This document shows, piece after piece, positions 5,513-64,000 of a stretch of 64,000 nucleotides of DNA. The DNA is from Allocoleopsis franciscana PCC 7113. GTDB lineage: Bacteria; Cyanobacteriota; Cyanobacteriia; Cyanobacteriales; Coleofasciculaceae. The stretch spans positions 3,374,001 to 3,438,000 of the forward strand of contig NC_019738.1 in the NCBI RefSeq assembly GCF_000317515.1, written 5' to 3'. Both the position numbers and the translations under genes were made by a program. The notes under the pieces were generated by a model that was not told the DNA's origin, made no database searches, and saw only the letters and a program-made list of their open reading frames with translations. Each line of letters begins with the position of its first letter. The stretch's first letter is position 1.

Positions 5513-7678
5513 GTGAGCCGGTCATTAGAGCAAATCCGGCGACCCCAATCATCGGTGCCGTACAAACTCGATAATGCCTGGATACAGCCCAAAAACCTAT
5601 TAATGAATATTACGACTTCCGTACTGGCTAGCTTACTACAAGCCATGCCCCAACTGCGGCAACAAGTATATTTCAAGACTTCTCTGACCGCCCTCTCCCA
5701 TGCGATGGAAGATCAAGTTTTGGCTGGCTCCGATCAGCCTTTAGTGATTGCTAACTTTCAACGAGAGCGATTTTACCGTCAGGAAGCACACCGATATCGA
5801 CGAATTGCCGAACGGACATCTCAATTGTACGTACTAGCGGCACCGGATACGGACTTTAAAAATAGCTCGGATGTCTACGAAACTGTAGCCTTCGACCCAG
5901 AAGATGGCCTGAGTCAAGAATGGCATTTAGTGGTGATTGGGCAGAATTATGCCAATTGCCTGATTTGTCGAGAACGACTCGCACAGGTCGTGGAGAGTCC
6001 GAATTCGGAGATGGACACCTCCCGGCGCTTTGAGGGAATCTGGACATTTGACCGAACGGTCAGCCAGAAAGCGGCAGAGTTACTCTTGAATCGTATTGAA
6101 GTGTACCGACCTGAACTGGCGGCAAAACTATTAGAGGCAAAATCCAGGTATTTAGGGGATTTTTCCCGGCGTGACTCGGCAGCACAATCTTTCTCAGAAT
6201 CTCTCAATCCCGACCCCTTTGTCCATCGCTTGGTCACTTACTTGCAGGCGGGTCAATACAAATTACTCAAAGCCTATCGTTCCATCTCGGCTCAAGAACA
6301 GAAAGAACGGCTGGTCAATTCAATTACGGCAGCCATTCGGCGCAGTCTAAATCCCACGGAAATTCTGGAAGTCGCGGTGCAGGAGTTGGGACAAGCGTTG
6401 GGGTCTTGTCGGTGTGTGATTTATTGTTGCAAGGCAACGGATGCGACTACCACCATTAGCCATGAGTTCTTAAAGCTGAGAGAGGGTGAGGTACAGCTTG
6501 CCCCCACACGAGGGCAAACTTGGCCATTACAAGACAATGGCCTATTTCAGGAGGTGGTACAGCATCAAGAACCGGTTTATGTTGAAAATACTCAAGACGA
6601 TCCTCGCTTAAATCAGGCTAAAGCCTCACGGTCAACGCTGCCTGAACGAAGAACGGCGAAGTCTAAAGGAAATAAGCGCCCTTTGCCCAGTATCTCTTTA
6701 AAAGATGTGATGCAGCAGTTTTCGATTCGCTCTCTGCTGATGGTGCCAATGCTGTATCAGGGTCAGTTGTTGGGCATGGTGGAGTTACATCATTGTGGAG
6801 AACAGCCTTATCAATGGCAAGAGGATGAATTGGCATTGGTGGAAGCGATTGCCACTCAAGTGGGTGTTGCTTTAATTCAAGCCCAAGCCTACGCCAACTT
6901 AGAAGATTTGAATCAACAACTCGAAGCGCTTGACCGGACTCGCAGCAACTTAGTGGCAATCACCGGTCACGAACTACGCACCCCTCTTTCTACCATCCAG
7001 GTCTGCCTAGAAAGTCTTGCTAGCGAACCGGATATGCCACCGGAGTTGCGTCAGATTATGCTCAATACCGCTTTAACCGATGCTGAACGGATGCGGAAAC
7101 TGATTCAAGATTTCCTCACCCTGTCGCGTTTAGAAAGTGGTCGCGTGCAATGGCACCCAGAACCTCTCTCGTTGCAAGAATGCGTTGAACTAGCTCTGAG
7201 TAATATCCGTGCTCGTCGGTCGGTGAGTGAACTCCCCCAAATCACCGTCCAAGTGCCAGAAGACCTGCCTCTGGTTCGTGCTGATGGCGAGTGGCTGGTC
7301 GAAGCTTTAGCCAAACTTCTAGACAATGCCTGCAAATTTACCAATCCGCAAGGGGAAGTGATCATTGGCACCCAGACTAACGGGGGTTCCATGCTAGAAG
7401 TCACTGTAGCCGATACGGGGCGAGGAATTGAACCCAACCGTTTAGAAGATGTATTTGATCGCTTCTATCAGGAAGAAGGTGCCCTACGACGCACGGCTGG
7501 CGGCACAGGGTTAGGTTTAGCAATTTGTCGTCAAATTGTCAAGGGGTGGGGCGGTAAAATTTGGGCAGACTCAGGAGGCAAAGATCAGGGAAGTCAGTTT
7601 CACTTCACCGTGCCGATTAGCAGTCGTCCCGCAGAACCTCAGTCAAAAACAGAAAGAGGACTATGGTCGAAGAATTAG
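5513..7678 (+). CDS. DICT-GAF sensor histidine kinase
   Basis: A soluble two-component sensor kinase of 721 residues with no membrane segments. Residues about 30-210 match the DICT sensory domain common in cyanobacterial kinases and diguanylate cyclases. A GAF domain follows at about 265-455, with a low-complexity basic insert (about 365-390). The HisKA phosphoacceptor is the His in ITGHELRTPLS near residue 485. The HATPase domain (about 600-710) has the N-box LLDNACKF, the G1 box VADTGRGI and the G2 box GGTGLGLAI. The start is GTG at 5513. An internal ATG at 5602 would cut into the DICT domain. No response regulator gene adjoins it, so the partner is unknown. Confidence 0.92.
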   Translation: MSRSLEQIRRPQSSVPYKLDNAWIQPKNLLMNITTSVLASLLQAMPQLRQQVYFKTSLTALSHAMEDQVLAGSDQPLVIANFQRERFYRQEAHRYRRIAERTSQLYVLAAPDTDFKNSSDVYETVAFDPEDGLSQEWHLVVIGQNYANCLICRERLAQVVESPNSEMDTSRRFEGIWTFDRTVSQKAAELLLNRIEVYRPELAAKLLEAKSRYLGDFSRRDSAAQSFSESLNPDPFVHRLVTYLQAGQYKLLKAYRSISAQEQKERLVNSITAAIRRSLNPTEILEVAVQELGQALGSCRCVIYCCKATDATTTISHEFLKLREGEVQLAPTRGQTWPLQDNGLFQEVVQHQEPVYVENTQDDPRLNQAKASRSTLPERRTAKSKGNKRPLPSISLKDVMQQFSIRSLLMVPMLYQGQLLGMVELHHCGEQPYQWQEDELALVEAIATQVGVALIQAQAYANLEDLNQQLEALDRTRSNLVAITGHELRTPLSTIQVCLESLASEPDMPPELRQIMLNTALTDAERMRKLIQDFLTLSRLESGRVQWHPEPLSLQECVELALSNIRARRSVSELPQITVQVPEDLPLVRADGEWLVEALAKLLDNACKFTNPQGEVIIGTQTNGGSMLEVTVADTGRGIEPNRLEDVFDRFYQEEGALRRTAGGTGLGLAICRQIVKGWGGKIWADSGGKDQGSQFHFTVPISSRPAEPQSKTERGLWSKN

Positions 7679-7701
7679 TAATGGGTAATGGGTAATGGGT
7701 T
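7679..7701. repeat. tandem heptamer TAATGGG
   Basis: Directly after the kinase stop lies TAATGGG repeated three times. This is a typical short tandemly repeated sequence (STRR) as found between genes in filamentous cyanobacteria. Confidence 0.7.
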
Positions 7702-7888
7702 AGTCAGAAAAACGGGTTGATGCGCTCTATTCTGCAACCTGAAACCTTCTGTTTTCAACGCTCTGAGCCAATGACCCCTCACTAAAATAACTGAGCGAAC
7801 TGTTACAGTTCTTGACAGAGTCGCTAGCCGTGCACAACCTCGGTGATAGCATTCCCTAGATGCTCTATGTAACGTTGAGAAAATAACT

Positions 7889-8314
7889 ATGGCAGAAGAA
7901 CTTACTGGACAAGCTCCCATATTTGGCGGCAGCACTGGCGGCTTGCTGACCAAGGCTCAAGTAGAAGAAAAATATGCCATTACCTGGACTAGCCCCAAAC
8001 AGCAAGTCTTTGAAATGCCGACAGGTGGCGCAGCCGTCATGAACGAAGGCGACAACCTGCTGTACCTTTCTCGCAAGGAGTACTGCATTGCTTTAGGCGG
8101 TCAGCAACTGCGGGCAAAATTCAAAATCAACAACTATAAGATTTACCGGATTTTCCCGAATGGTGAAATCCAGTATCTCCATCCGGCTGATGGCGTATTC
8201 CCTGAAAAAGTGAACAAAGGCCGTCCTTATGTTGGTAAAGTAGACCGCAATATTGGCCGCAACCCAGAACCCGCTACCCTCAAGTTCAGTAGCAAAAAGC
8301 CCTTTGAGGTGTAG
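7889..8314 (+). CDS. psaD: photosystem I subunit II PsaD
   Basis: PsaD is the stromal/cytoplasmic photosystem I subunit that docks ferredoxin and stabilises PsaC. The 141-residue product is the standard cyanobacterial length. Characteristic stretches are recognisable along its whole length: [15 protein letters not shown] at the N-terminus, [11 protein letters not shown], the central [20 protein letters not shown] with its basic ferredoxin-docking residues, and [12 protein letters not shown] followed by [11 protein letters not shown] near the C-terminus. There is no signal peptide, as expected. It lies just upstream of trpE, an order seen in several cyanobacteria, but about 280 bp of repeat-rich DNA separates them, so cotranscription is uncertain. 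Confidence 0.98.
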
Positions 8315-8381
8315 ATGAATCGGTTGTTTGGCGTAGCCATTGCCGTTTGCGTAGCTTTGGTCTTGTAGCGCGTAGCGTCGT

Positions 8382-8567
8382 TAGAAGGTTGCAGGTTACA
8401 GGTGAGAAGGTTGCAGGTTGAAGCTTAGAAGGTTGTAGTTTATCGGTTAGAAGGTTAGCCGATTATAGGTGACGGCTTATAATCTTTAACATTTAACCGT
8501 TCAACCGTCAAGATTCAACCTGGCAACTTTTCATCCTTCAACACCTAAAAACCTTCAACCTGTTGAC
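8382..8567. repeat. heptamer-based inverted repeat cluster
   Basis: The left half is built from AGAAGGTTGCAGGTT-like units and the right half from their complements (TTCAACC, CCTTCAACCTG). The segment could fold into long imperfect hairpins. Related GGTTGAA clusters occur at 44739-44803 and 57574-57642. It fills the psaD-trpE gap, and no gene is visible in it. It may attenuate readthrough from psaD, which is inference. Confidence 0.65.
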
Positions 8568-8594
8568 TTGGCTCACCTTCAACTCTTAAAAAGC

Positions 8595-10121
8595 ATGATT
8601 TTCCCGGATTTCTCGCAGTTTCGTGCACTGGCAAGCCAGGGTAATTTTGTGCCGGTTTACCAGGAGTGGGTAGCGGACTTAGAAACGCCAGTGTCGGCTT
8701 GGTATAAGGTTTGTGCAGGTCAGCCTTACAGCTTCCTGTTGGAATCGGTAGAGGGCGGGGAGAATATCGGACGCTACAGTTTCTTAGGCTGTGACCCATT
8801 ATGGGTGCTGGAAGCCAGAGGAGAACACACGACCCAAACGCACCGAGATGCTTCCGTACAGGTGTTTGAGGGCGACCCCTTTCTGGCGTTAGCCAATTGC
8901 CTAAAACCTTATCATCCTGTCAAGTTACCTCAACTCCCACCGGGGATTGGCGGTTTGTTCGGGTTTTGGGGTTACGAACTGATTCGTGCTTGTGAACCGC
9001 GTGTCCCTGTTTATCCAGTTCAGGAAGGGGACTTGCCCGATGGACTGTGGATGCAGGTGGATAACCTGATTATTTTTGATCAAGTCAAGCGCAAGATTTG
9101 GGCGATCGCCTATGCAGATTTGCGGGATGCGGAGGTTGATTTAGAACAGGCGTATCAAAAAGCGTGCGATCGCGTGTGTGCCTTGGTAAGCAAACTTCAG
9201 TTGCCCCTAAATGCAGCAGACACCATCTTAGAATGGACACCGCCTGAGAGTGCGACCCAAAAACTATCCTATATCAGCAACACAGAACCCTCCGAGTTCT
9301 GCGCGAATGTCAAAAAAGCCAAAGAATACATCAAAGCAGGGGATATCTTTCAGGTGGTTATCTCCCAGCGTCTCTCGGCAGAGTATAGCGGAGAACCCTT
9401 TGCTCTGTATCGCTCTCTGCGCCTGATTAATCCTTCGCCTTACATGGCCTATTTCAACTTTAGGGATTGGCAAATTATTGGCTCTAGCCCAGAAGTGATG
9501 GTTAAAGCCACCAAGTCACCCCAAGGGGGAATTACTACAACCTTACGTCCCATTGCCGGAACTCGACCCCGGGGTAAAACCCATCAAGAAGATGAAGCCC
9601 TAGCACAAGAGTTGCTGCAAGACCCCAAAGAAATTGCCGAACATGTCATGCTGGTTGACCTGGGGCGTAATGATTTGGGTCGCGCCTGCAAAAAGGGTAC
9701 GGTAAAGGTGGATGAATTAATGCTGATCGAGCGCTACTCCCACGTTATGCACATTGTCAGCAATGTGGTGGGCGAACTCGATGAGGATAAAACCGCTTGG
9801 GATTTGCTCAAAGCCTGTTTCCCGGCGGGGACGGTAAGTGGAGCACCCAAGATTCGGGCGATGGAAATTATTCACGAACTCGAACCCGAACGGCGTGGCC
9901 CTTATTCGGGTGCCTATGGCTATTATGATTTTGAGGGACAACTCAATAGTGCGATCACCATTCGCACGATGGTGGTTCGCCCTACCGAGTCGGGTCAGCA
10001 TATCGTATCTGTTCAAGCCGGTGCCGGTTTGGTTGCAGATTCTGAGCCAGAGAAAGAATACGAAGAAACGCTCAATAAAGCTAGGGGACTATTAGAGGCT
10101 ATTCGCTGTCTAGGGACGTAG
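8595..10121 (+). CDS. trpE: anthranilate synthase component I
   Basis: TrpE converts chorismate to anthranilate with ammonia from TrpG in the first step of tryptophan synthesis. I chose the ATG at 8595 because the in-frame TTG at 8568 lies inside the repeat cluster. The product is then 508 residues. Chorismate-binding landmarks are clear: FQVVISQRLS near residue 250, IAGTRPRGKT, LVDLGRNDLGR, SGAPKIRAMEIIHELEP and QAGAGLVADSEPEKEYEE near the C-terminus. The N-terminal part matches TrpE rather than isochorismate or aminodeoxychorismate synthase, including an LLES-type tryptophan-feedback motif. No leader-peptide attenuator is visible upstream. Confidence 0.95.
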   Translation: MIFPDFSQFRALASQGNFVPVYQEWVADLETPVSAWYKVCAGQPYSFLLESVEGGENIGRYSFLGCDPLWVLEARGEHTTQTHRDASVQVFEGDPFLALANCLKPYHPVKLPQLPPGIGGLFGFWGYELIRACEPRVPVYPVQEGDLPDGLWMQVDNLIIFDQVKRKIWAIAYADLRDAEVDLEQAYQKACDRVCALVSKLQLPLNAADTILEWTPPESATQKLSYISNTEPSEFCANVKKAKEYIKAGDIFQVVISQRLSAEYSGEPFALYRSLRLINPSPYMAYFNFRDWQIIGSSPEVMVKATKSPQGGITTTLRPIAGTRPRGKTHQEDEALAQELLQDPKEIAEHVMLVDLGRNDLGRACKKGTVKVDELMLIERYSHVMHIVSNVVGELDEDKTAWDLLKACFPAGTVSGAPKIRAMEIIHELEPERRGPYSGAYGYYDFEGQLNSAITIRTMVVRPTESGQHIVSVQAGAGLVADSEPEKEYEETLNKARGLLEAIRCLGT

Positions 10122-12283: not shown

Positions 12284-13288
12284 TCATAAAGACAAGCCAT
12301 TTAAAAAATCGGCGTCTATTTCTGGAAGAGAGGGGTTAATACTAATACCTGTTGCCAACTCAAAACCTGCCGGAGTCGTTAGGCGAGGTTGAATTTGGCA
12401 ATACCAGTGTACCTGAGGTTCCTCCGCTTTGTAGCGAGCCGCTGTATTGATCACGTAGTTGTAATCAGGGTCATTCAATTTATCGTACAAATTCCGCAGA
12501 ATGCTCTGCAAAATTAAGGCAAAGTCCGATTTTTCCTGTTCAGAAATACTGCCAAAATCAGCTTGATGATTTTTCGGCATAATCCAGGTTTCAAAAGGAA
12601 CCTCGGCAGAAAAGGGAACAAAGGCTAAAAACGAGTCATTCTCCTGAACAACTCGCCTGCGGTTTTGCAATTCAAACTCCAAAATGTCGCAGTACACACA
12701 CCGTCCCCAGACATCAAAGTAGCGCTGAGCCTGTTCCTCTCGGTATCGACGATGCTGAGGAACCACACCCGTAACGATAATCTGAGAGTGAGGATGCTTT
12801 AAAGAAGCACCCGCCCGTTCACCATGATTGCGAAAAATAATCGCCATCATATTCTCATGGGCTACCATTAAATCGAGGTAGCGTTTGTGATAAGTTTCAA
12901 TCACAATCTCCACTTCTTCTGGTGACATTGTAGCGATGTCTTTGTCGTGTTCAGGAGTTTCAACAATCAACTCATGTTGACCATAACCGGGCATCGCGAT
13001 ATAAATTCCTTCAGTGGAACGCTGAGTATGTTCATGGGGTGTTAAGGCAGGAAACTTGTTAGGAACTACCCTCGTTTGCCAAGAAGTTTGTTGCTTGTTC
13101 GGTATCTCCAGAAGAATCGTCTCTAACATCGGTTCCCTACAAAAAGGGCATTTTTGCTCCTGGTTGACTGGATGTTGTGGAGTCTGACTATTTTTTTTCT
13201 GAAAATCTTGGGGGCGTTTACGCCGACCTGGTGCATAAATCACCCATTCTCTCGTCACTTTATTGAGCCTGATTTGACCGTCTTGCAT
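12284..13288 (-). CDS. galT: galactose-1-phosphate uridylyltransferase
   Basis: GalT transfers UMP between UDP-glucose and galactose-1-phosphate in the Leloir pathway. The 334-residue product has the N-terminal RPQDF segment and a CPFC zinc-binding pair near residue 48. The NHGERAGASLKHPHSQI block near residue 160 carries the HPH nucleophile motif. A second zinc site is likely in CVYCDILEFE. The C-terminal domain carries EVPFETWIMP and VHWYCQIQPRL. It ends 12 bp past the stop of the convergent 11654 gene. No other Leloir gene is nearby. Confidence 0.93.
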   Translation of the reverse strand: MQDGQIRLNKVTREWVIYAPGRRKRPQDFQKKNSQTPQHPVNQEQKCPFCREPMLETILLEIPNKQQTSWQTRVVPNKFPALTPHEHTQRSTEGIYIAMPGYGQHELIVETPEHDKDIATMSPEEVEIVIETYHKRYLDLMVAHENMMAIIFRNHGERAGASLKHPHSQIIVTGVVPQHRRYREEQAQRYFDVWGRCVYCDILEFELQNRRRVVQENDSFLAFVPFSAEVPFETWIMPKNHQADFGSISEQEKSDFALILQSILRNLYDKLNDPDYNYVINTAARYKAEEPQVHWYCQIQPRLTTPAGFELATGISINPSLPEIDADFLNGLSL

Positions 13289-13937
13289 AATCTAAAGTTG
13301 AATAGTTTTTTGGTTATTACTGCTATTTAATCTGAAGTATGAAGGATAAACTATGGAGGAAGAAACACTATCCCCATCCGGGAAACATCGTGAACAACCC
13401 AACAAGCGCCGTGGCGTTTCAGCGTCTTCCCCTAACCCTGATTTCTATCCACAACATCAAAAGAGAAAGTCAGCCTCAACAGGAGTGTCATCATTAACAG
13501 ACTGTTGCCAAGCACTTCTTTTTGGACAGCGCTCAAGGTACGATGGGCTGTGGCGATACCCTAAAGCGTTGCTACGCTTGAGTACCGACTCTGCTTTCCT
13601 AAACGCGTAAGTTCTCTAACAAGAATATCTAACTGAGCCCTAGCAGTGGGATACATTTTTTAAATCAGGAGCAGTTCACAAGGGCTTATCCACCCGTTAT
13701 AGATAAAAGAAACATGAAAAGAATTTCTCCTTCTGTCCTCCTCACGGTCACTAAAGCTTTGGTGGATATCTCCACTCCTGTTTTTTAGAAGCCTTTCCCG
13801 CAGAGTAAGCGAAGCATTGCTAGGATCGAGAAACGAGCCGTTACCAGGGAAAAACGAAAATTTAAGCAATCGCCCCTTGGGCGGTGCGCTTAGCGCAATC
13901 GCATACTAGAGCTATCCGTGTGAAAACCGCCAACCCG
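13289..13937. other. repeat-rich intergenic region, about 650 bp
   Basis: This stretch separates galT from the HEAT-repeat gene. It contains several short GC-rich cyanobacterial repeat fragments: GCTACGCTTGAG near 13570, CGCAGAGTAAGCGAAGC near 13800, and GGGCGGTGCGCTTAGCGCAA near 13879. Open frames at 13353-13610 (+) and 13660-13869 (-) have the composition of translated repeats, and I do not treat them as genes. Confidence 0.5.
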
Positions 13938-16121
13938 ATGGAATCTCAGCAGCAGCGGCTTCAGCTATCCGAAGTAGCCAACACTCTTCGAGCGCAGTTG
14001 CCTCATCTAAATGATGAGCAGCTTAAATATGAATATTTAAACGACCTGAAATGGACAGAACCCTTAATCCTGGCTTTGCAGCAGGTGGAGGAGAAGTCTC
14101 AGGCGTTACGAGTGGTCAAGTTAGCCTTAGAGGTGGATGGGTGCCTCGGCGCAAGACTCGCAGGAACGGTGAAATCGGAGTTTCACACCGCAACAGTAGG
14201 CTGGTTAGCGGGGTTAGATATGCCTGTGCTGCTCAAAACTCAACTTCTGGGCCTTACAGGTTCGGATATCGCCATTCCACCTCTACTGGAAACGTTGAAT
14301 GCCCAAGACTCTGGAGTGCGCTGTAGTGCCACAGAGGCGTTAGGTGCGATCGCGTCTGTTGCCGCCGTAGCCGCGCTCTCAACCGTGTTGAATCATCAAG
14401 ATACAGAAGTTCGCTCCCAGGCCGCTTACGAGTTAGGGCAAATCGGCAATGAGTCAGGAGTGGCAGCACTCAGGCGAGCATTGGATGACCCAGAGTATCA
14501 GGTGCGAGAAAGTGCTGCCTTGGCACTGGGTACCATCAGCTCTGAGGCATCCGTAGCAGCGCTAGCACAAGCCTTGAACCATAACAACCTTGATTTACGG
14601 GGGAGAGCGGCTTCAGCCTTGGGTCAAATCCGCACAGAGGCAGCCGTTGCCGTGTTGGAGCAAGCCCTCAACGATGAAGTTTATCGAGTGCGCGAGACAG
14701 CCGCTCACGCCTTAGGGAAAATCGGCACGGAAGCCGCTGTTGCGGTATTACGGCGCTCCGTTAACCATGAAAACTTTGATTTTCGGGGCATCGTCACCTC
14801 AGCTTTAGGGGCAATTGGATCAGAAACAGCCGTGGCAGCTTTACAGGAGGCTTTAGACCACCCCGACTACCGCGTGCGGGGAAGAGCTGCATTAGCATTA
14901 GGGTCGATTGGGACTGAGACAGCCATCGCCGCACTGCAACGAGCCTTAAATGATCAAAATTATCGAGTGCGTGAGAAAGCCGCTTTAGGCTTAGGGTCTA
15001 CGAATTCTGATGCGGCGCTTGTGGCATTGCAGCAAGCTTTAAGTGATGAAGACTCTTACGTTCGCAGAACCGCCGCCGAAGCATTGGGTTATATCGGCTC
15101 TGAGGTAGGATTGGTGGGATTGCAGAGAGCCTTGAGCGATGAAGATGCCTATGTTCGGAGAACAGCAGCTTGGGCGTTAGGGCGAATCGGTACCTCTGTG
15201 GCGACCTCTGAAAGGACAGATGACCCAGAAGCGGCTTTAAGTCCAGCCGCCGTAACCGCATTGCGCCTCGCTTTAAATGATCAAGATGCTTGGGTGCGTT
15301 TAAGTGCGGCTTATGGTTTAGGGAAAGTAGGCTCTGAACTCGGTGTAGCTGCCTTGCAACAATCGTTGAGTGATGAAAACTTTGAAGTTCGAGAAAAAGC
15401 CGCCGAGGCGTTGGGGAAAATTGGCTCCCAGGCAGGCGTGCCAGGACTGAGACAATCTCTGTACGATGAAGACTTTGGAGTTCGCCGCAAAGCCGCCGAG
15501 GCACTCGGAAAAATTGGCACGGAGGCGGCTGTCGCTGCCCTGCGGCAGGCTTTAAGAGATAATGACACGGAAGTACGTTGTCGGGCTGCTTCTGGGTTAG
15601 GAAGAATTGGCACGGAGTCCGCTGTAGCCGCACTACGAATCGCCTTGAGAGATGAGGACTCAGAGGTGCGTTTAATCGCCGTTCAAGCCTTAGGGGAAAG
15701 CGGCTCAGATACAGCGGTAGTCTTACTCCGTAGTGCCTTGACCGAAGAAGACTCTCAACTGCGGGGAAGAGCGGCTTATGCCTTAGGCTCGATCCACTCC
15801 AAGACGGCGGTAGAAGCACTAGTGCCCGCCTTGAGCGATCAAGATTCTTGGGTGCGTTGGATGGCAACCTCCGCATTAGGTACGATTGGCTCACAGACAG
15901 CGGCGCTGGCGCTGGAGCAAGCCTTGAGAGATGAAGATTTTCGGGTTCGTTATACGGCGGCTGAAGCCTTGGGCAGAATGGGGCGGCCCGAATTATTACC
16001 GGCTCTATCCTCCATGCTCCTAACTACGGTGGATACTTATGAGCTGAGTACTTTACTGAATGCGATCGCATTAATTCAAAAGCGCTGTGGCTACTACAAC
16101 CATCACATCGCTGCGCCTTGA
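13938..16121 (+). CDS. HEAT-repeat (PBS-lyase-like) protein
   Basis: A scaffold protein of about 727 residues made almost wholly of some twenty HEAT-like repeats of about 31 residues. Each has a core such as VRxxAAxALGxIGxxxAVxALxxAL and NDxxxxVR. The same repeat type occurs in phycobilisome lyases (CpcE/F) and in many cyanobacterial interaction scaffolds. No catalytic domain is present, so a protein-protein interaction role is inferred. The first repeat is about residue 110, after a helical N-terminal region. The frame opens with a GTG at 13884 inside a repeat; the ATG at 13938 is preferred. One repeat, about residue 430, holds an extra insert (TSERTDDPEAAL). Confidence 0.88.
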   Translation: MESQQQRLQLSEVANTLRAQLPHLNDEQLKYEYLNDLKWTEPLILALQQVEEKSQALRVVKLALEVDGCLGARLAGTVKSEFHTATVGWLAGLDMPVLLKTQLLGLTGSDIAIPPLLETLNAQDSGVRCSATEALGAIASVAAVAALSTVLNHQDTEVRSQAAYELGQIGNESGVAALRRALDDPEYQVRESAALALGTISSEASVAALAQALNHNNLDLRGRAASALGQIRTEAAVAVLEQALNDEVYRVRETAAHALGKIGTEAAVAVLRRSVNHENFDFRGIVTSALGAIGSETAVAALQEALDHPDYRVRGRAALALGSIGTETAIAALQRALNDQNYRVREKAALGLGSTNSDAALVALQQALSDEDSYVRRTAAEALGYIGSEVGLVGLQRALSDEDAYVRRTAAWALGRIGTSVATSERTDDPEAALSPAAVTALRLALNDQDAWVRLSAAYGLGKVGSELGVAALQQSLSDENFEVREKAAEALGKIGSQAGVPGLRQSLYDEDFGVRRKAAEALGKIGTEAAVAALRQALRDNDTEVRCRAASGLGRIGTESAVAALRIALRDEDSEVRLIAVQALGESGSDTAVVLLRSALTEEDSQLRGRAAYALGSIHSKTAVEALVPALSDQDSWVRWMATSALGTIGSQTAALALEQALRDEDFRVRYTAAEALGRMGRPELLPALSSMLLTTVDTYELSTLLNAIALIQKRCGYYNHHIAAP

Positions 16122-51061: not shown

Positions 51062-54000
51062 ATGCAGTCTGAACAACAACAGCGCATCATGGGCTACTTC
51101 ATTGAGGAGGCAAAAGACCACCTCAATACCATTGAGCAGGGTTTGCTCAGTCTGCAAAGCACCATGGAAGACAGGGAGATGCTCAACGAAATCTTCCGTG
51201 CTGCCCATTCCGTCAAAGGTGGGGCAGCGATGTTGGGAATTAATAGCATTCAGCAGACAGCCCATCGCCTCGAAGACTGTTTCAAAACCCTACAAGAGTC
51301 GTCAGTCAAACCAGACAATCAGTTAGAATCTCTCTTCTTGCGGGTCTTTGATACCCTTCAGGCACTCGTAGAGCAACTTCAAAGCCCATTTGGCCTAAGC
51401 GACGACACCGCTGGGGAAATCATGTCGGATGCTGAACCCGTCTTTGAGGAACTGCACACCCATCTAGAAACGCTGGTGCAAACAGCAAGCGATTCTCCTG
51501 CCGTAATGGTTGAAGCCCCCAAGGTAACCTTGGCAAATTCTCAGATGAATACAGCAAATCCCAAACCCCTGCCAGCGAACTTTAAACGAGATGTCCTGAT
51601 AGAACTGCGGGAGATGTTACAGCTGTTTAAACAGCAAGACCTGCCCGAACATCGGGAAGCCTTACAGGCTCATTGTCTGAATCTAGTTCGTTTGGGCGAA
51701 CCGCAAGACTTGCCCGGTTGGGACGAGTTACTGGAGACGGCACGGGTCGCGATCGCCTGTTCGGCCAATTCCTATCGCCTGCTGGCTAACATTGTCATCA
51801 AAGAAATCAAACAAGCTCAAGAATTAGTGATCGCCGGTCGCTCAGTTGAAATTTGCGCCAGCGAACAGCTCAACGCCCTCGTTCCAGAGTCCCACGCCTC
51901 AGAGATTCCCGTGGAACTCCAATCCCAAGAATCAGAATTTGATCGGAGTTTTGACCAGGATTTTGCACCCGATGCTCAAGAGTCCGAAACCCTAGAATCC
52001 CATAGCCAGACGTTTCAAGACGAGAGTGAATCGTCATTAACGCATCTCTTTGACGGCTCAGACACAGAGATTCAATCCGACCTCCAAGACTACATCCCCG
52101 AAACCTTAGTAGAAGGTGACAGTGCTTCCTCTCCAGCCTTTATCCAGTCGGAACAGCAAAAAACGAGAAGAATTTACCGATTTGCAGCCCCTAGCGAACC
52201 CGAAGTTGGCGTGGCAGAATTGAACACTCTGGCGGATATTTTTGAAGGTCAAATGCCCGATTTGGATGAAACCTGGCAAGACGAAGAAGTTATCAATTTA
52301 GACGACAACTCGACGGCATCTTACTCCGGCAACTCATTTAGTTTAGATGAGCAGAGTGATTTTTCTGACCTCGTCAGCGATCTAGATAGCTTAAACCTCA
52401 GCGATGACGCCTCGACCAGCGAAGACTTGATGGATTTGTTTGGAGATGAATCCCTAGAAGAAGTCGTTCCTCATACTCCAGAATCAAGCGATTCAAACTG
52501 GAGAGGTCTAGACGCTGAAACACCCCTCAGTACAACCGATTCAGGGATGGATGACTTTTCTGATTTGCTATTTGAGGAAGATAGCCCCGATCCCGTGTTC
52601 GCTTCCAGCCGCGAATCAGAGGACTTAAGCAATTTATTTGGGGACAGCTTCTTTGAAGAAAACAGTCTTTTGGAACAAGACTTAGACGATTTTGATTTGG
52701 AGGCTGACCCTACCTCCCAATTGCAGCATCCGGACGATGATTTGTTTGCCATGCCCATGGCGGATGTGTTTGCATCAGAGCCAGAGGAGTTCTCGAACGA
52801 GACAGAAGCATTAATCCGTGAGAGCTTCCCTACCCAGGACAATGAGTTTTTTGATTGGGAAGACTCATCACAGCCATTGGAAAACCTGGAGGATGAAGCG
52901 ATTGGGTTGGACTCAGTCGCCCCTACTCAGTCAGACATGGACTTTGGCGAACTGACGGAAATTTCCGCCAATGTTGGGGGTGAACGTCCTCATACCGCGA
53001 GTCCTGCGAGTGGAACGGCACCCGATCCAGAGTTGAGTGACGAACCCGTCATTGACAACCAAGCTACAGTTTTGGGCTGGGAAGAATTAGACGAATCTAC
53101 GGCAGATTTTGATTTTGATACCCAGGCCGATTTTAATCAAGGCAAAGAAGTAGGAGACCTGACCCCGGTTGAGAGTCTCCAATTTGATGATTTTGGCCTC
53201 GATGCAGATACGGCTGATTTATTTCAGCCAAGCGACCTATCCCTGGACGACAGCTTCTTCGATACCTCTACCTCTGACATCCCAGCACAAGAGAGGGAGA
53301 GTTTTTCAGATTTGGCTCTGGAAAACTTTATGTCAACGGATGAGCTGAGCGGTGTAGATGATTGGAACTGGGATGAAGAAAATGAAATCCCCCTTGATGA
53401 GGCGGCTACCTTCGAGCTCGGAGGAGATTTGACCGATCCCACGACAACTGACCTGATGCCAGAAAGCTTAGGGCAGTCAGAGAGTGAGGCAGACGACGAT
53501 TTGTCTTCCTGGCAGGATAGTGCAACCGAAGAGTCTTTTTGGGATGTGAATCAGCCAGAGTCAACCTCAAATGAGTTTGAGTTAGCCGGAAGGGACGCAG
53601 AGGGCGATGCATCTGCCCTCGATTTTGATTTCGAGGAAACATCCAGCGATGCCTTCAACTTTGAGGTTAATAATATTGGCGATCGGGATGACTTGTTGGA
53701 GGATGAAGCCCTTTCTACCAGCATGGCAGCCCAAAGTGCCGCATTGCAAGCTCTAGAAGCTTTCGAGGATTTGTTAGAGACACCCACACAAGAAGCGGCA
53801 ACTCAGGCCAGCGAAGGCTTGGAATTCTCCGACTTAGATCAGATAGAAGCTCACTCTGAGTTAGATGACCTGAATGGCTTCTTGAATGCAGAGGACGTGA
53901 GCGAGGCTGATGCGCGATCGCCGATTAACGACGATGACGATGGCTCTTTTTGGGAGGAAACACACGAGCCAAGCGACTCGCAGGTCGAACAGCCCCTCAA

Positions 54001-57000
54001 CTTTGAAGACTTTTCCCTCTTCGACATACCAGAGGCATCGGACAACGCCGGCGTCGCCAGTCTACAAGAATCAGCGCTGCCAGAAGAAACGTTTGAAGAC
54101 TTGCTCTTCGAGTCCAGCGCTTCCGAGGAAGACCAGAGTGCAGAACTCTCAGATGCCTTCTTTGATACCCCGGAAAATGACCTCTTTGACCTGGAATTCA
54201 CCGAAGCTTCCTCTGCGGAAAGGGAAAGTGCGGCGTTAGACGCCTCACCCGTGTCAGATTTCGAGGCTATGTTTGGGGATGAATCTTCCGGGGAAACCGA
54301 TAGCGCAGCCGTAGAGGCTCCAACGCCATCAGATTTCGATTTGTCATCGTTGAGCGCCAATGACTCCAATGCAGATGCGGATTCATGGGCTGACAATTCG
54401 TCATCATTAGATTGGGCGTTTGAGGCAGGGGAAGAAACCACCGCAGAGGCTCAAACTCCGCTTTTTGAATGGGACGAAGCGGATAGTGCGGTCTTAGAGG
54501 GGCTAGAAGTATCGGTTCCGGATGCCAGTGTTGAGAGCAGGGCATTAGACAGTCCGTCCGCGTCAGACTTCGATGGGCTGTTGGGTGACGGACTCTTTGG
54601 AGATAGCGATTCCTTCGATGTTTCAGAGAGTGCAACGGATCACTTATTTGACACGGAGATAGATGTTAGTGAGGAGCAGCCGCTGACAGAGGAAGCCGTA
54701 GCTGATGATCTCCTCAATTTTGATTGGGAAGGTACAGGCGCGACTGAGTCCGAGAATTTTGAGGATGTCTTCAGTTCTCAGACCGATGAGGTTCCGGAGG
54801 CTGAAACTTGGGATGATTTGTTAAGCGCGACTCAAGAGAGTGATGTTCCGGATACCGAACTCACGGCGCTATCCGATGACGAAGTGGACACACCTGTTCA
54901 GGCAGCAGCCTTTGACTTTGAGGCCCTAGAGGATGAAACGACAACCGAACTGAATCTGGATTGGGAAACACAGGAGAGTGATCACCTGTTCACCGAGAGC
55001 GAGGCGGACGCGCATCTGGACGCGACTGCTGCACAGGATTCAGCAGCAGATCGTTCTCAATCCTTGGAATTTGACGATTTGGAATCCATGCTGGATGGGG
55101 GGGCGGCGGATAATTCTCAATCCTTGGAATTTGACGATTTAGAATCCATGCTGGATGGGGGTGCAGCGGATAATTCTCAAGCCTTGGAATTTGATGATTT
55201 AGAATCCATGCTAGGTGGGGGCGAAGAACTAGCGATTTCGGGTCTAGACGCTTGGGATACCACATCTGGGAATGGTGAATTCGACGGACTCGATGAATTT
55301 GCCGATTTAGAGGCGATGCTGGCTGAGGCTCCAAGTCACCCAACTACCGAATCGAGCGACTTGGATGTGTTTCAAGACCTCGATTCCCTATTAGAAGACC
55401 AGACCCAAGCACCGGATTCACCAGCCCCAGCCCCCGTGAATCGTGCCACCTCGAAGGCCAGTTCTTTAGCAGACGAATTTGGAGACCTGGAGAGCTTACT
55501 AAAGCAAGCCGATAAAAGTCTGGGGGGGCCTCCGAGTGCCATGCCTGACCAAAGTAGAACGCGCCCTTCTATGCGTCCCCGTCCCCCCCGCGTGTTCGAG
55601 CATACAATGCGGGTACCGGTTAAACATCTAGATAGCCTCAGCAATTTGGTGGGAGAACTGGTGGTCAACCGCAATACCCTAGAGCAAGACCAAGAACGCC
55701 TGCGGCAATTTTTGGATAATTTATCCCATCAGGTTTTAGCTCTGAGTGATGTGGGGGCGAGGATGCAGGACTTGTATGAGCGCAGTCTCTTGGAAAGTTC
55801 GCTCTTGGCGAGCCGTCCGGGTCATCGTTCCCCAGGACAGTCCGATCTCTTCTCCCTTCCGCTTCATCACTCCGGTGAAGAATACGATCCCCTAGAAATG
55901 GATCGGTTCACCGGCTTCCATTTGCTGTCCCAAGAAATGATTGAACTGATCGTTCGAGTCCGGGAGTCGGCATCTGACATTGAATTTTTGGTGGATGAAA
56001 CCGATCAGGTGGCTCGGATGTTACGGCAAATCACCACCCAACTCCAAGAAGGATTAACCCGAGCACGGATGGTGCCCTTTGCCCAGAATGCTGATCGCTT
56101 GCTGCGTGCCGTACACGAAATTTCTCGGAAGTTAGGCAAAGAGGCTCAGTTACAGGTTGAGGGTCGGGAAACTTTGATCGATAAGATGATTCTCGAACAC
56201 CTCTATGACCCGATGACACACCTGGTCAACAACGCCCTGACGCATGGGATTGAGTCGCCAGAAGTCCGCAAAGCCGCTCGGAAGCCACCCGTTGGTAGAG
56301 TGACGCTGCGAGCGTTCCACCAAGGGAACCAGACGGTGATTTCTATCTCCGATGATGGAGCCGGAATCGATGCCGAACGAGTCCGATCTAAGGCCATTCA
56401 GCAAAGACTGATTAAGGCCGATGACGCCAAAACTCTGACGAATGTAGAGTTATATGACTGTCTGTTCCACCCTGGTTTTAGTACCAAAGACAAAGCCGAC
56501 GATTTCTCCGGTCGAGGTGTGGGGATGGATGTTGTCCGCACCAGCTTGAGTGAAATTCGCGGAACGATCCACATTGATTCCACTGTGGGCAAAGGCACAA
56601 CTTTTACCATTCGTCTACCTCTGACGCTGAGTATTTGTAAAGCGCTCTGTTGCCTGAGCGATCGCGCCCGCATTGCTTTCCCCATGGATGGGGTGGAAGA
56701 CATGATGGATATTTTGAACGATCGCGTTCAGACCAATGCAGAGGGTCAATCCTGCATTCAATGGCGAGATACGCTCCTACCCTTCCACTCTCTCTCGGAT
56801 CTGCTCACCTACAAGCGTCAACTCAGTCGCAACACGGTCTACGGCGGCAAACGGGAAGATGACATGATTTCCATTGTGGTGCTGCGGAGTGCGGGGAACT
56901 TCCTCGCCATCCAAGTGGATCAAGTGTTAGGTGAACAAGAAATCGTGATTAAGCAACTCGAAGGCCCACCGCCTAAGCCCGTGGGAATCGCTGGGGCTAC

Positions 57001-57547
57001 GGTTTTAGGGGATGGTCGGATTATGGCGATCGCGGATGTTCTAGAATTAATTGACCTGGCGAACGGACGGATTCGCAAGGATGGTGGTGTGACCCTCTGG
57101 CCTAGGGAAGAACCTCAGGTTGAACTGCCAGGAGAAATCATTGAGGCCAAGTCTGAACCGATGGTGCTGATTGTGGATGACTCCATTACCGTGCGCGAAC
57201 TGCTTTCCATGACCTTCAGTAAATCCGGTTATCGGGTCGAACAAGCTCGTGACGGTCAGGAGGCTTGGGATAAACTCCGCTCAGGTTTACCTTGCGACAT
57301 TGTGTTTTGTGACATTGAAATGCCGAGAATGGATGGTCTAGAGTTGCTGTCTCGACTCCAGAAAGACGAGAAGCTCGCCAACCTACCCATTGCGATGCTC
57401 ACCTCACGCGGTGCCGACCGACACCGACAAATGGCATCTCAGTTGGGAGCCAGTGGCTACTTCACCAAGCCCTATTTGGAAGAAGTCCTATTGGATGCCG
57501 CTCAGCGCATGATTAAAGGCGAAGTCCTGTTTAACAGCAATGCTTGA
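51062..57547 (+). CDS. giant CheA-type hybrid histidine kinase with acidic linker
   Basis: A 2161-residue chemotaxis-type kinase. It has an N-terminal Hpt domain with phospho-His in FRAAHSVKGG (His49), then a second Hpt-like helical bundle (about 175-265) lacking the His. From about 270 to 1500 runs an acidic, Ser/Asp/Glu-rich low-complexity linker. Then comes the CheA core: dimerisation about 1515-1680, HATPase about 1690-1850 (LVNNALTHGIES, DDGAGIDAE, GRGVGMDVV), and a CheW-like domain about 1855-2010. A C-terminal receiver about 2030-2150 has phospho-Asp in VFCDIEMPRMDG. This layout is that of PilL/ChpA-type kinases of the cyanobacterial pilus and phototaxis systems. No CheW, MCP or CheY gene is adjacent. 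The linker includes three 60-bp tandem repeats. Confidence 0.93.
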   Translation: MQSEQQQRIMGYFIEEAKDHLNTIEQGLLSLQSTMEDREMLNEIFRAAHSVKGGAAMLGINSIQQTAHRLEDCFKTLQESSVKPDNQLESLFLRVFDTLQALVEQLQSPFGLSDDTAGEIMSDAEPVFEELHTHLETLVQTASDSPAVMVEAPKVTLANSQMNTANPKPLPANFKRDVLIELREMLQLFKQQDLPEHREALQAHCLNLVRLGEPQDLPGWDELLETARVAIACSANSYRLLANIVIKEIKQAQELVIAGRSVEICASEQLNALVPESHASEIPVELQSQESEFDRSFDQDFAPDAQESETLESHSQTFQDESESSLTHLFDGSDTEIQSDLQDYIPETLVEGDSASSPAFIQSEQQKTRRIYRFAAPSEPEVGVAELNTLADIFEGQMPDLDETWQDEEVINLDDNSTASYSGNSFSLDEQSDFSDLVSDLDSLNLSDDASTSEDLMDLFGDESLEEVVPHTPESSDSNWRGLDAETPLSTTDSGMDDFSDLLFEEDSPDPVFASSRESEDLSNLFGDSFFEENSLLEQDLDDFDLEADPTSQLQHPDDDLFAMPMADVFASEPEEFSNETEALIRESFPTQDNEFFDWEDSSQPLENLEDEAIGLDSVAPTQSDMDFGELTEISANVGGERPHTASPASGTAPDPELSDEPVIDNQATVLGWEELDESTADFDFDTQADFNQGKEVGDLTPVESLQFDDFGLDADTADLFQPSDLSLDDSFFDTSTSDIPAQERESFSDLALENFMSTDELSGVDDWNWDEENEIPLDEAATFELGGDLTDPTTTDLMPESLGQSESEADDDLSSWQDSATEESFWDVNQPESTSNEFELAGRDAEGDASALDFDFEETSSDAFNFEVNNIGDRDDLLEDEALSTSMAAQSAALQALEAFEDLLETPTQEAATQASEGLEFSDLDQIEAHSELDDLNGFLNAEDVSEADARSPINDDDDGSFWEETHEPSDSQVEQPLNFEDFSLFDIPEASDNAGVASLQESALPEETFEDLLFESSASEEDQSAELSDAFFDTPENDLFDLEFTEASSAERESAALDASPVSDFEAMFGDESSGETDSAAVEAPTPSDFDLSSLSANDSNADADSWADNSSSLDWAFEAGEETTAEAQTPLFEWDEADSAVLEGLEVSVPDASVESRALDSPSASDFDGLLGDGLFGDSDSFDVSESATDHLFDTEIDVSEEQPLTEEAVADDLLNFDWEGTGATESENFEDVFSSQTDEVPEAETWDDLLSATQESDVPDTELTALSDDEVDTPVQAAAFDFEALEDETTTELNLDWETQESDHLFTESEADAHLDATAAQDSAADRSQSLEFDDLESMLDGGAADNSQSLEFDDLESMLDGGAADNSQALEFDDLESMLGGGEELAISGLDAWDTTSGNGEFDGLDEFADLEAMLAEAPSHPTTESSDLDVFQDLDSLLEDQTQAPDSPAPAPVNRATSKASSLADEFGDLESLLKQADKSLGGPPSAMPDQSRTRPSMRPRPPRVFEHTMRVPVKHLDSLSNLVGELVVNRNTLEQDQERLRQFLDNLSHQVLALSDVGARMQDLYERSLLESSLLASRPGHRSPGQSDLFSLPLHHSGEEYDPLEMDRFTGFHLLSQEMIELIVRVRESASDIEFLVDETDQVARMLRQITTQLQEGLTRARMVPFAQNADRLLRAVHEISRKLGKEAQLQVEGRETLIDKMILEHLYDPMTHLVNNALTHGIESPEVRKAARKPPVGRVTLRAFHQGNQTVISISDDGAGIDAERVRSKAIQQRLIKADDAKTLTNVELYDCLFHPGFSTKDKADDFSGRGVGMDVVRTSLSEIRGTIHIDSTVGKGTTFTIRLPLTLSICKALCCLSDRARIAFPMDGVEDMMDILNDRVQTNAEGQSCIQWRDTLLPFHSLSDLLTYKRQLSRNTVYGGKREDDMISIVVLRSAGNFLAIQVDQVLGEQEIVIKQLEGPPPKPVGIAGATVLGDGRIMAIADVLELIDLANGRIRKDGGVTLWPREEPQVELPGEIIEAKSEPMVLIVDDSITVRELLSMTFSKSGYRVEQARDGQEAWDKLRSGLPCDIVFCDIEMPRMDGLELLSRLQKDEKLANLPIAMLTSRGADRHRQMASQLGASGYFTKPYLEEVLLDAAQRMIKGEVLFNSNA
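55055..55225. repeat. 60-bp coding tandem repeat in the CheA-like gene
   Basis: Three head-to-tail copies starting at 55055, 55115 and 55175. Each encodes SQSLEFDDLESMLDGGAADN or a close variant (SQALEF, MLGGG in the last). The near identity at DNA level indicates recent amplification. Confidence 0.85.
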
Positions 57548-59739: not shown

Positions 59740-60752
<1,013 letters not shown>

Positions 60753-61301
60753 CTAAAATAAGTTACCTCTAATGAAACTTTGGAGATAAGCTCTTTTATC
60801 AGCAATGCTCATCTTAGTTTCGAGATAGTGATGCCATAAAGCATATTCATGATTCATAACTTTAATTTCCCACGTACAAGCCACCCCCGTCTTTTCCAGT
60901 GGTTTTGGCGATAACTCAGGAAAACTGCCTTCAACTGTATACGTTTGGGTAAACAAAACATTGCCACGTCCCCAAATGTTAATGCTCAAGAATCCTTGGG
61001 ACAAAATAGCAAAACCAACACCTTGTTTTGCATCCACACGACCATGATTAATTTCGTCAAGAATAAAAGATTGTAAATTATCTTGCAAATGTTGTGGCAG
61101 TGGCTCGGCTTCCCGTAGCATATGATAGAGTTTCAGCACCAATTTCTCATGGACTAAAAAGCCGATCGGCTTGGCTGAACGACGAATATACTGATAAGTT
61201 TTCTGATACTGATCGCTCAGGGTATCCACATTAGCCTGGTTTTGCAGGTAATCATTGGTTATTGCAGGTGGCAAATCTAAGATGATGGTGGTGGCGTCCA
61301 T
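60753..61301 (-). CDS. unknown protein, last gene of the radical SAM operon
   Basis: A 182-residue soluble protein with no family I recognise. It starts with MDATTIILDLPPAITNDYLQ, has a helical middle (LVLKLYHMLREAEPLPQHLQ) and a beta-rich C-terminal half (FAILSQGFLSINIWGRGNVL and TCTW-like VACTWEIKVMNHEYALWHHYL). There are only one Cys and many aromatics. It lies 27 bp after the FGE-like gene on the same strand, so it is probably translated from the same transcript. It could be the substrate or a partner of the two enzymes. That role is inference. Confidence 0.65.
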   Translation of the reverse strand: MDATTIILDLPPAITNDYLQNQANVDTLSDQYQKTYQYIRRSAKPIGFLVHEKLVLKLYHMLREAEPLPQHLQDNLQSFILDEINHGRVDAKQGVGFAILSQGFLSINIWGRGNVLFTQTYTVEGSFPELSPKPLEKTGVACTWEIKVMNHEYALWHHYLETKMSIADKRAYLQSFIRGNLF

Positions 61302-61328
61302 CCGTTTTCTTCTCCGTTGTATCCTCTG

Positions 61329-62072
61329 TTAAAATGCGACGACACGAAAGCTAAGTCCGCTTCCTCTGACATGCGGTTTGTTCCAATCGCGGTAAGCACA
61401 GCGAATCAAAGAAGGCGTGTATTTCCATCCACCGCTGCGTACAACGCGCAGAATATCTGGATTATCCATATTTTCCCGCCCATCGTCAGCTTGATAAGGA
61501 TAGCGAAATTCAGGATTATGGGTATCTGTTCCCCAAATCGTACTTGTCCATTCCCAAGTATTACCCGCCATATCAAATAAGCCGTAATAACTTTTCCCTT
61601 GTGGATAGGCGTCTACTGCTGTTGTCTTACCAACCTGCTTGTCATAATTAGCCAATTGGGAGGTCGGCGCGTGATTCCCCCAAGGATACAGGCGTTTATC
61701 TATCCCGCGCGCCGCTTTTTCCCATTCAGCTTCGGTGGGTAAACGCACACCCGTCCACTTACAAAAAGCGACAGCGTCATGCCATGTCACCCACACAATG
61801 GGATGATTTTCTTGACCTTTTGGTAAACCATGTCCCCACAGTTTATCCCGATCAGCCCAAGGATAATTGCTGTGTGCTAAAAATTGTACCCATTGTGCAT
61901 TGGTGACGGGAAAACGGCTGATTTGATAGCTGGGCAAAGAAACTTTGTGTTGTGGTAGTTCAACAAGTTTCGCCCAATCATCCGCAGCGGCGACCTGATC
62001 TACCTCCAGATTAGTACCCATCCAAAAGAAACCTGCGGGGATTGTAACCCAGTCAAAGCTGTCTAATAACAT
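61329..62072 (-). CDS. FGE-sulfatase (SUMF1)-domain protein
   Basis: A 247-residue protein consisting of one formylglycine-generating-enzyme fold. Markers are FDWVTIPAGFFWMGTN at the N-terminus, SRFPVTNAQWVQFL, PIVWVTWHDAVAFCKWTGVRLPTEAEWEKAARG, YDMAGNTWEWT-like LFDMAGNTWEWTST, and RVVRSGGWKY near the end. One Cys (IRCAYRDW) sits where FGE has its second catalytic Cys, while the partner Cys five residues before it is absent, so classical sulfatase activation is unlikely. Other members hydroxylate, form C-S bonds (EgtB) or act as binding scaffolds. It lies 17 bp after the radical SAM gene, and no sulfatase is nearby. Confidence 0.88.
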   Translation of the reverse strand: MLLDSFDWVTIPAGFFWMGTNLEVDQVAAADDWAKLVELPQHKVSLPSYQISRFPVTNAQWVQFLAHSNYPWADRDKLWGHGLPKGQENHPIVWVTWHDAVAFCKWTGVRLPTEAEWEKAARGIDKRLYPWGNHAPTSQLANYDKQVGKTTAVDAYPQGKSYYGLFDMAGNTWEWTSTIWGTDTHNPEFRYPYQADDGRENMDNPDILRVVRSGGWKYTPSLIRCAYRDWNKPHVRGSGLSFRVVAF

Positions 62073-62089
62073 TGCTCACCTAAAGTTAT

Positions 62090-63088
62090 TCACAGCAGAA
62101 TTAGTTGAGATTGATACTGTCTGTCATCAAGTTTGCTCTGGTAAAAAAGTTGAAGCAAAGCAAAATCTTGAGTTTTATTAAATTGTTTCAGGGCATTGCG
62201 GGTTTCTGGTTGATAATCCTTATGGACAGTATAATCGCCATAACCATCAGTATTGTTCTCAGACCACAACCCTGTATAAATCGGTACGTTCAAATCACGG
62301 GTTTCGGCAATTACTTCAACAACACTTTGGATACGAACTGGCTTATACTGATGAAGTGAAAAAGCTTTGGCTAAAGGTGTGCCTTTGGCGACGTATACGG
62401 GATTGAGATAAATCACCAAATCAGTACCAAATTTTTGACAAACTCCTGCCAGATATTCAATTGTTAAAATAGCCTCATTAATCCCTTCTTTTTCGGTCAT
62501 TGTTGGGCCGGGTTTTAACAAGACATAGCTTGTCAGCCTAACCCCCATTTCACCCAGCAGCTTAATCTTGGCTTCAAAATTTTTCCGGCGAATGGTTTTA
62601 TTCAAAATGACTTCGCGCAAATAATCGTCTTGTGTTTCAAAACCAACTGTCACATCAATGATCTCAGCATGGGTTAAATGGAAAATGTCTTCTAGGGTTG
62701 CTGGTAAAATATATTCTGGGCGAGTTTCCAATGATAGGACTTTCAAAGAAGAAATCGCTCGTGCTTGCTCAAGTAAGTAAACTATTGCTTCCTTAGGAAA
62801 ACGTTCCCGATCTAGGATAGACCCTTCGTTACCGACTGAAAGTTGTTGGAAACTACTCAATTCATCTGCATATTGCTCAAAACTCCAATCAATTTGTTGT
62901 TTAATTTTCTTAACTGGCAGGGGTTCAGGATGGGATTTCGTTGGCAAACTACAATAAGAACATTGAAATGGACATTTTTGGGCATAAAACGCAATTACCA
63001 AATCTTTGAGGCCGAGAAATGTACGTTTACTTAGATAAATGGGACGCAAAATTTTATCCTGACTTTCCATATCGTGTAGCCTTTTCAT
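62090..63088 (-). CDS. radical SAM protein
   Basis: A radical S-adenosylmethionine enzyme. The [4Fe-4S] motif C-x3-C-x2-C is intact in QKCPFQCSYCSLP. Further landmarks are SVGNEGSILDRERF, SLETRPEY (the GxIxGxxE-like region), VGFETQDDYLREVILNK, and GVRLTSYVLLKPGPTMTEKEG. The pattern recalls the archaeosine radical SAM (RaSEA/TIGR01210) and Elp3-like branch rather than SPASM RiPP enzymes, but the match is loose. The frame opens with TTG at 63124; ATG 63088 or 63070 are more likely starts. First gene of a three-gene operon with the FGE-like and unknown proteins. Confidence 0.85.
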   Translation of the reverse strand: MKRLHDMESQDKILRPIYLSKRTFLGLKDLVIAFYAQKCPFQCSYCSLPTKSHPEPLPVKKIKQQIDWSFEQYADELSSFQQLSVGNEGSILDRERFPKEAIVYLLEQARAISSLKVLSLETRPEYILPATLEDIFHLTHAEIIDVTVGFETQDDYLREVILNKTIRRKNFEAKIKLLGEMGVRLTSYVLLKPGPTMTEKEGINEAILTIEYLAGVCQKFGTDLVIYLNPVYVAKGTPLAKAFSLHQYKPVRIQSVVEVIAETRDLNVPIYTGLWSENNTDGYGDYTVHKDYQPETRNALKQFNKTQDFALLQLFYQSKLDDRQYQSQLILL

Positions 63089-63124
63089 TTGTATGGGTTT
63101 TAAACAATTAGCAAGCTGTCCCAA

Positions 63125-63622: not shown

Positions 63623-64000
63623 ATGGAAATACCTATCATCTCCGCAGACTCCCACGTTATCGAACCCCCTAACCTGTGGGTCGAGAGACTTGATAAGCAA
63701 TACCGGGACAGAGCACCGCACATCTTCTGGAATGAGGAACGCCAAGGGTGGTTTTTCGTATGCGAAGGGCTGCAACCTGCATTGGTCAACTCGCTGTATG
63801 CAGTGGACAAATCTCCAGAAGAGTTTGCTAAACAGCGGAAGGTGGGAATTGAGGCTGTCCGGCGTGGCGGGAATGATCCCGGCGAGCGCCTCAAGGATAT
63901 GGAGCGTGACGGTGTTGCGGCGGAGGTTCTTTACACCAGCTTAGGTATGTCGTTGTTCTGGCTTCAGGATGCTGCGTTCCAGAAAGCCTGTTTTCGGGCA
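63623..64000 (+). CDS. amidohydrolase family protein, N-terminal part
   Basis: The frame starts with ATG at 63623 and is open to the window edge, 126 codons. The N-terminus MEIPIISADSHVIEPPNLW has the D-x-H metal motif and the context of the amidohydrolase 2 (PF04909) family, of decarboxylase and hydrolase type. Further typical text is LKDMERDGVAAEVLYTSLGMSLF near residue 95. The remainder, including the distal His and Asp ligands, lies beyond the window. Substrate unknown. Confidence 0.85.
   Translation, partial: MEIPIISADSHVIEPPNLWVERLDKQYRDRAPHIFWNEERQGWFFVCEGLQPALVNSLYAVDKSPEEFAKQRKVGIEAVRRGGNDPGERLKDMERDGVAAEVLYTSLGMSLFWLQDAAFQKACFRA

Follow-up and report, generated by a model that had tools for sequence, protein, structure and literature searches.

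What do a radical SAM enzyme, an FGE-fold protein and a 182-residue protein without a known family do side by side in the cyanobacterium Allocoleopsis franciscana PCC 7113, and is their clustering more than chance? The genes lie in a stretch of 64,000 nucleotides (hereafter the window; NC_019738.1, positions 3,374,001 to 3,438,000), of which an initial annotation had described three same-strand genes 17 and 27 bp apart. These coordinates were borne out: the three intact ORFs, free of internal stops, follow one another on the minus strand as radical SAM, FGE-fold and X182 genes, separated by 17 and 27 bp (Table 1). The unit had been placed at 60753-63124; the trio stood, but the end at 63124 did not, as the island to which it belongs runs ~6.7 kb beyond the window. 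For the radical SAM gene, ATG 63070 is a more probable start than TTG 63124, which would add 18 residues, because AAAAGG lies just upstream of the ATG and the N-terminus of the relative begins there. No Rfam family was found in the region, and promoter and terminator scans of the region gave a signal no better than chance.

Table 1. Features of the island in A. franciscana and trio orthologues at the Campylobacteraceae locus L003. L018 is the DNA beyond the window; window position = L018 position + 63500.
Feature	Position	Strand	Description
Dispersed repeat	60457..60597	.	Left edge of island; multi-copy in both congeneric genomes
X182 gene	60753..61301	-	182 aa; orphan family with two known members
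FGE-fold gene (SUMF1/EgtB/PvdO-type, stand-alone)	61329..62072	-	247 aa; PF03781
Radical SAM gene	62090..63070	-	326 aa from probable start ATG 63070; CPFQCSYC motif intact
PF04909 amidohydrolase	63623..64000, continuing as L018:123-1238	+	371 aa; start of divergent arm
u422	L018:1266-2534		Orphan 422-aa protein; divergent arm
HilA-like Fe/2OG protein	L018:2637-3506		Related to L-isoleucine dioxygenase HilA, 104 bits vs cut-off 500; divergent arm
GT4 glycosyltransferase	L018:3665-4858		Divergent arm
B12-type radical SAM protein	L018:4934-7009		Divergent arm
L003 FGE-fold orthologue	4937-5677		63% identical to trio FGE-fold protein
L003 X182 orthologue	7435-7983		63% identical to X182
L003 radical SAM orthologue	7983-8915		62% identical to trio radical SAM protein

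We searched for the trio in other genomes. When 84,980 species genomes were scanned by exact short peptides, which detects close relatives only, with the radical SAM protein alone as the query (its neighbourhood excluded), one relative was found, at locus L003 of a Campylobacteraceae MAG. All three trio orthologues were present there inside 4 kb, in shuffled order and at 61-63% identity. As gene order differs, linkage of the trio was kept through rearrangement. With all three orthologues together at an independent locus in another phylum, the clustering is no accident, and the trio is a real and extremely rare module. The initial annotation had named rare adjacency of the homologues as something that would refute it; in both genomes known to carry them (n = 2), they are clustered. 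Elsewhere in the cyanobacterial sample, neither the radical SAM protein nor X182 was found. Specifically, the radical SAM protein was detected in none of 385 other cyanobacteria. X182 was found in none of 96 relatives, in none of 376 other cyanobacteria searched with a two-sequence profile, and in none of 298 other genomes in the order of the Campylobacteraceae relative. A weak X182 match in one cyanobacterial genome (G179) was a chance match, out of frame inside a recN-like gene. No strong RaSEA-like match was found in 396 other Campylobacterota, and the profile matches in 46 of them were rejected as short or weak superfamily matches. Searches of plasmids, phages and IMG/VR with X182 and the radical SAM protein returned nothing close.

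The L003 cluster also contains an NspC-family decarboxylase (472 bits, above the cut-off), an SDR and another radical SAM protein of RaSEA-like type, which has additional cysteines at its C-terminus. The six cluster genes match the low GC of the contig (0.25-0.31, compared with 0.27). Neither an NspC-like decarboxylase nor a second TIGR01210/RaSEA-like match was found in the A. franciscana genome, and the trio genes are the only ones common to the two loci. L003 carries two nspC paralogues, one in the trio cluster (3786-4925) and one 8 kb away (13188-14333), which are 63% identical; the in-cluster copy is a recruited polyamine-type decarboxylase.

In A. franciscana, the trio forms one arm of an island of ~10.2 kb with eight intact genes (60423 to ~70666; right part L018:501-7166). 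In the only congener compared (G001), both flanks are colinear at 91-93% identity and ~15 bp replaces the island. The failure to find island genes in other cyanobacteria makes insertion in the source genome more probable than loss in G001. A 32-bp direct repeat (94%) occurs at the left (~60527-60559, within the dispersed repeat) and right (~70621-70652) ends. The clean insertion relative to the congener, the repeat copies at both ends and the lack of radical SAM, u422 and X182 matches elsewhere in the sample favour horizontal gain, and a recently or horizontally gained island is the best reading.

The divergent arm encodes biosynthesis-type enzymes together with u422, which was found in none of the 385 other cyanobacteria and is the second orphan family of the island. 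A Streptomyces NRPS cluster contains relatives of the HilA-like protein, and others lie next to a diaminobutyrate transaminase on rhizobial plasmids, which makes an amino-acid-like substrate plausible. GC3 was mosaic: 0.32-0.41 for the trio, 0.57-0.59 for the amidohydrolase and u422, and 0.32-0.35 for the Fe/2OG and GT4 genes. The arms may thus stem from different sources and need not cooperate. Among the island genes, none was recognised as encoding a transporter, carrier or ligase, and the only defence-system model to match was a very weak 2OG model.

We then examined each trio protein. PF03781 matched the FGE-fold protein with 176.2 bits (1.2e-51; Pfam cut-off 23.3), and the fold spans the whole protein. 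Its only cysteines are C104 and C225, both of which are kept in the L003 orthologue. C225 aligns with Cys341 of human FGE, while Cys336 has no counterpart. The initial annotation had noted a single cysteine at the catalytic position, concluded that the protein is not a classical sulfatase activator, and seen no sulfatase nearby. All three points held: C225 occupies the Cys341 position, the two-Cys pair (human C336 and C341) is incomplete, and no link to a sulfatase was found. The one-Cys fold is a weaker sign of something special than initially supposed, since visual inspection revealed the Cys-x4-Cys of classical FGE in none of the cyanobacterial FGE-fold C-termini sampled.

The closest solved structure to the FGE-fold protein was EgtB (7.6e-29), followed by human FGE. 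Its best cyanobacterial matches were EgtB-like proteins, with at most ~45% identity among the matches listed from 37 cyanobacterial genomes. However, the 247-residue protein consists of the FGE domain only and lacks the DinB iron-site domain; HxxxHxE was present in 17 of 18 EgtB-like relatives, the remaining one is truncated at the edge of a contig or frame. In the FGE-fold tree, the trio protein and its L003 orthologue formed their own pair (support 100/99). Although it shares the PF03781 fold with EgtB/SenA/OvoA and FGE (SUMF1), it differs in lacking the DinB half and a Cys336 equivalent and in pairing with L003. By membership tests, it is neither a classical FGE nor an EgtB. Since both the two-Cys copper site and the DinB iron site are missing, it may use a different site or only bind. 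PvdO, the dihydropyoverdine dehydrogenase, is a stand-alone FGE-fold protein of a natural-product pathway. The trio protein resembles it in its stand-alone fold and gave a full-length but weak NCBIfam match, far under the cut-off (64 bits vs 500), and pyoverdine genes are absent.

The radical SAM protein has the intact C-x3-C-x2-C motif reported initially (C33-x3-C37-x2-C40), which is kept in both RaSEA-like proteins of L003. Its PF04055 score (2e-7, 31.8 bits vs Pfam cut-off 29.5) places it in the radical SAM superfamily. The best NCBIfam family was TIGR01210 (RaSEA, the radical SAM enzyme of archaeosine biosynthesis), at 121.9 bits, below the cut-off of 212, with 258 of 313 profile positions aligned. 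The two L003 proteins scored 120.4 and 146.3 bits against the same cut-off. When a profile of the three RaSEA-like proteins was used, queuine lyase (PDB 6p78) was the only significant PDB sequence match (E 1.4e-5). The AF2 model (pLDDT 72) was a radical SAM barrel, for which Foldseek returned generic radical SAM barrels only (PFL-AE, viperin and others). By the cut-off test, the protein is a RaSEA relative outside the family.

RaSEA is the best NCBIfam family for the trio protein, both L003 proteins and proteins of Streptomyces plasmids. The trio protein differs from RaSEA in being sub-threshold, bacterial and located beside metabolic enzymes, with no ArcS or TGT partner gene recognised in the island or the L003 locus. 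The resemblance to queuine lyase covers the cluster-binding half, but spans just 147 positions, and there are no queuosine-salvage genes near the trio. A 7-deazaguanine derivative is cleaved at a C-N bond by both RaSEA and queuine lyase. The lysine adduct preQ0-Lys is converted by RaSEA, and ArcS requires a complex with RaSEA for its activity (PMC11298593). Streptomyces pFRL3 and pFRL5 also carry a sub-threshold RaSEA relative (173 bits) within a metabolic gene cluster, although identity is only ~25% and no FGE or X182 is annotated. Such relatives suggest that bacteria have a RaSEA-like group associated with gene clusters, in which the trio's radical SAM protein is a new variant. The Streptomyces linear-plasmid clusters (L004, L005; RaSEA-like gene at 7677-8792) also contain P450, SHMT, GT9, carbamoyltransferase and rfaE2 genes.

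X182 matched no family in Pfam, NCBIfam, PHROGs, PADLOC or PDB sequences, so these five comparisons bear out the initial view that it has no known family. It aligns with its L003 orthologue over the full length with 63% identity and zero gaps, a level of conservation equal to that of the two enzymes, and residues 92-118 are invariant. The pair lacks a conserved Asp-Ser (phosphopantetheine) site, a short variable core and a leader/core layout of the kind seen in RiPP precursors. HxxxH and HxxxHxE are also absent, the only conserved histidines being H51 and H60. Structure prediction, a check named in the initial annotation, gave a barrel for the radical SAM protein but no usable fold for X182; the AF2 model from its two sequences was uninformative (pLDDT 40.6). 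The initial annotation had suggested that X182 might be a modification target or carrier. Its end-to-end conservation and the absence of an Asp-Ser site and a variable core speak against this and make a role as enzyme or radical SAM partner likelier than one as peptide target or phosphopantetheine carrier.

Taken with its context, the trio can be read, at a probability of roughly 60%, as a co-inherited module of a small-molecule pathway, forming one of the two arms of a ~10.2-kb cluster gained by horizontal transfer. What is observed is the conserved trio, the island, the empty site in the congener and the mosaic composition. The small-molecule reading is favoured because the trio is clustered in a second phylum with metabolic enzymes, because the enzymes of the divergent arm are all of biosynthesis type, and because other sub-threshold RaSEA-like enzymes lie in metabolic clusters of Streptomyces plasmids. 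Module membership rests on n = 2, as only two trio loci are known. The initial proposal of an undescribed modification pathway was partly sustained: the unit is undescribed, but the hydroxylase, glycosyltransferase, amidohydrolase and B12 radical SAM protein of the island and the NspC-like decarboxylase and SDR of L003 favour small-molecule biosynthesis over protein modification. Literature searches on TIGR01210, on NspC with radical SAM clusters and on stand-alone FGE with radical SAM turned up no account of such a cluster.

In this pathway, the RaSEA-type enzyme would generate a 5'-deoxyadenosyl radical, which would abstract a hydrogen beside the amine or amide nitrogen of an amino-acid-, polyamine- or nucleoside-like small substrate. 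We infer this abstraction beside the nitrogen of an amine-rich substrate from the C-N cleavage by RaSEA and queuine lyase, although both enzymes are only distantly related to the trio protein (E 1.4e-5 for queuine lyase; a sub-cut-off score for RaSEA). X182 may be a dedicated partner of the radical SAM enzyme, for which the RaSEA-ArcS complex is a precedent (PMC11298593), or a separate enzyme that shares its substrate. Binding or oxidation of the product would fall to the FGE-fold protein, which lacks the classical two-Cys copper site. The Campylobacteraceae relative may complete the route by an NspC-like decarboxylation, an SDR reduction and another RaSEA-like step. The cyanobacterial amidohydrolase, amino-acid-hydroxylase-like Fe/2OG protein, glycosyltransferase and B12 radical SAM protein may be analogous tailoring enzymes. 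As no gene beyond the trio is common to both loci, the scaffolds on which the trio acts may differ between them, or the island arms may be unrelated.

Other readings fit part of these data. The enzyme could act on deazaguanine or a tRNA-bound nucleoside in the manner of RaSEA or queuine lyase, with X182 as an ArcS-like substrate-binding partner. TIGR01210 is indeed the best family for all RaSEA-like proteins compared, queuine lyase is the sole significant PDB sequence match of the profile, and RaSEA functions within a complex (PMC11298593). This is nevertheless unlikely, given that no queC/D/E/F or TGT gene was recognised in either cluster, every score is under the RaSEA cut-off and X182 matches no family. 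We consider it rather improbable, too, that the radical SAM and FGE-fold enzymes modify X182 as a RiPP-like substrate or carrier. X182 is an orphan family and adjoins or is near both enzymes in both loci, but a gap-free, full-length protein of 182 residues, conserved at the enzymes' level and having neither a leader/core layout nor a conserved Asp-Ser carrier site, is a poor fit. The island neighbours are metabolite-tailoring enzymes, and no RRE, protease or exporter was recognised in either cluster; nor was a leader/core precursor gene, very short ORFs being outside the systematic scope.

A split EgtB/OvoA/SenA-like enzyme for sulfur or selenium insertion, in which the FGE-fold protein corresponds to EgtB minus the DinB half and X182 gives the iron site, would agree with the EgtB-like top matches in both the PDB and cyanobacteria. 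It is very unlikely, as the FGE-fold protein has no DinB and X182 no HxxxHxE, in contrast to 17 of 18 EgtB-like relatives; the tree position of the FGE-fold protein may itself be a long-branch effect. There is also a slim chance that the trio is a passenger among unrelated pathway pieces joined by recombination at dispersed repeats. Mosaic GC3, repeat copies at the island edges and a divergent arm without a gene in common with the L003 cluster speak for this, but all eight island genes are intact and the trio is together in two phyla despite its changed order.

We return to small-molecule biosynthesis. The island, whose best reading is a non-modular small-molecule biosynthetic cluster, probably makes a small molecule, as far as its gene content indicates. 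Rule-based genome mining readily overlooks clusters of this kind, which lack the hallmarks of NRPS, PKS or RiPP pathways. A more specific version, which we put forward only tentatively, is that X182 founds a new family of obligate RaSEA-type partners and, with the FGE-fold protein, may carry out a novel radical/oxidative conversion leading to a new small-molecule class common, by lateral transfer, to a cyanobacterium and a Campylobacteraceae member. The trio is a compact, testable three-gene set, combining an orphan family, a non-archaeal sub-threshold RaSEA relative and an FGE-fold protein that lacks both known metal sites, and the two independent loci define a minimal gene set for expression. 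Elsewhere in the window, a CheA-like hybrid protein of 2161 aa (51062-57547) has a very long acidic, repeat-rich middle section.
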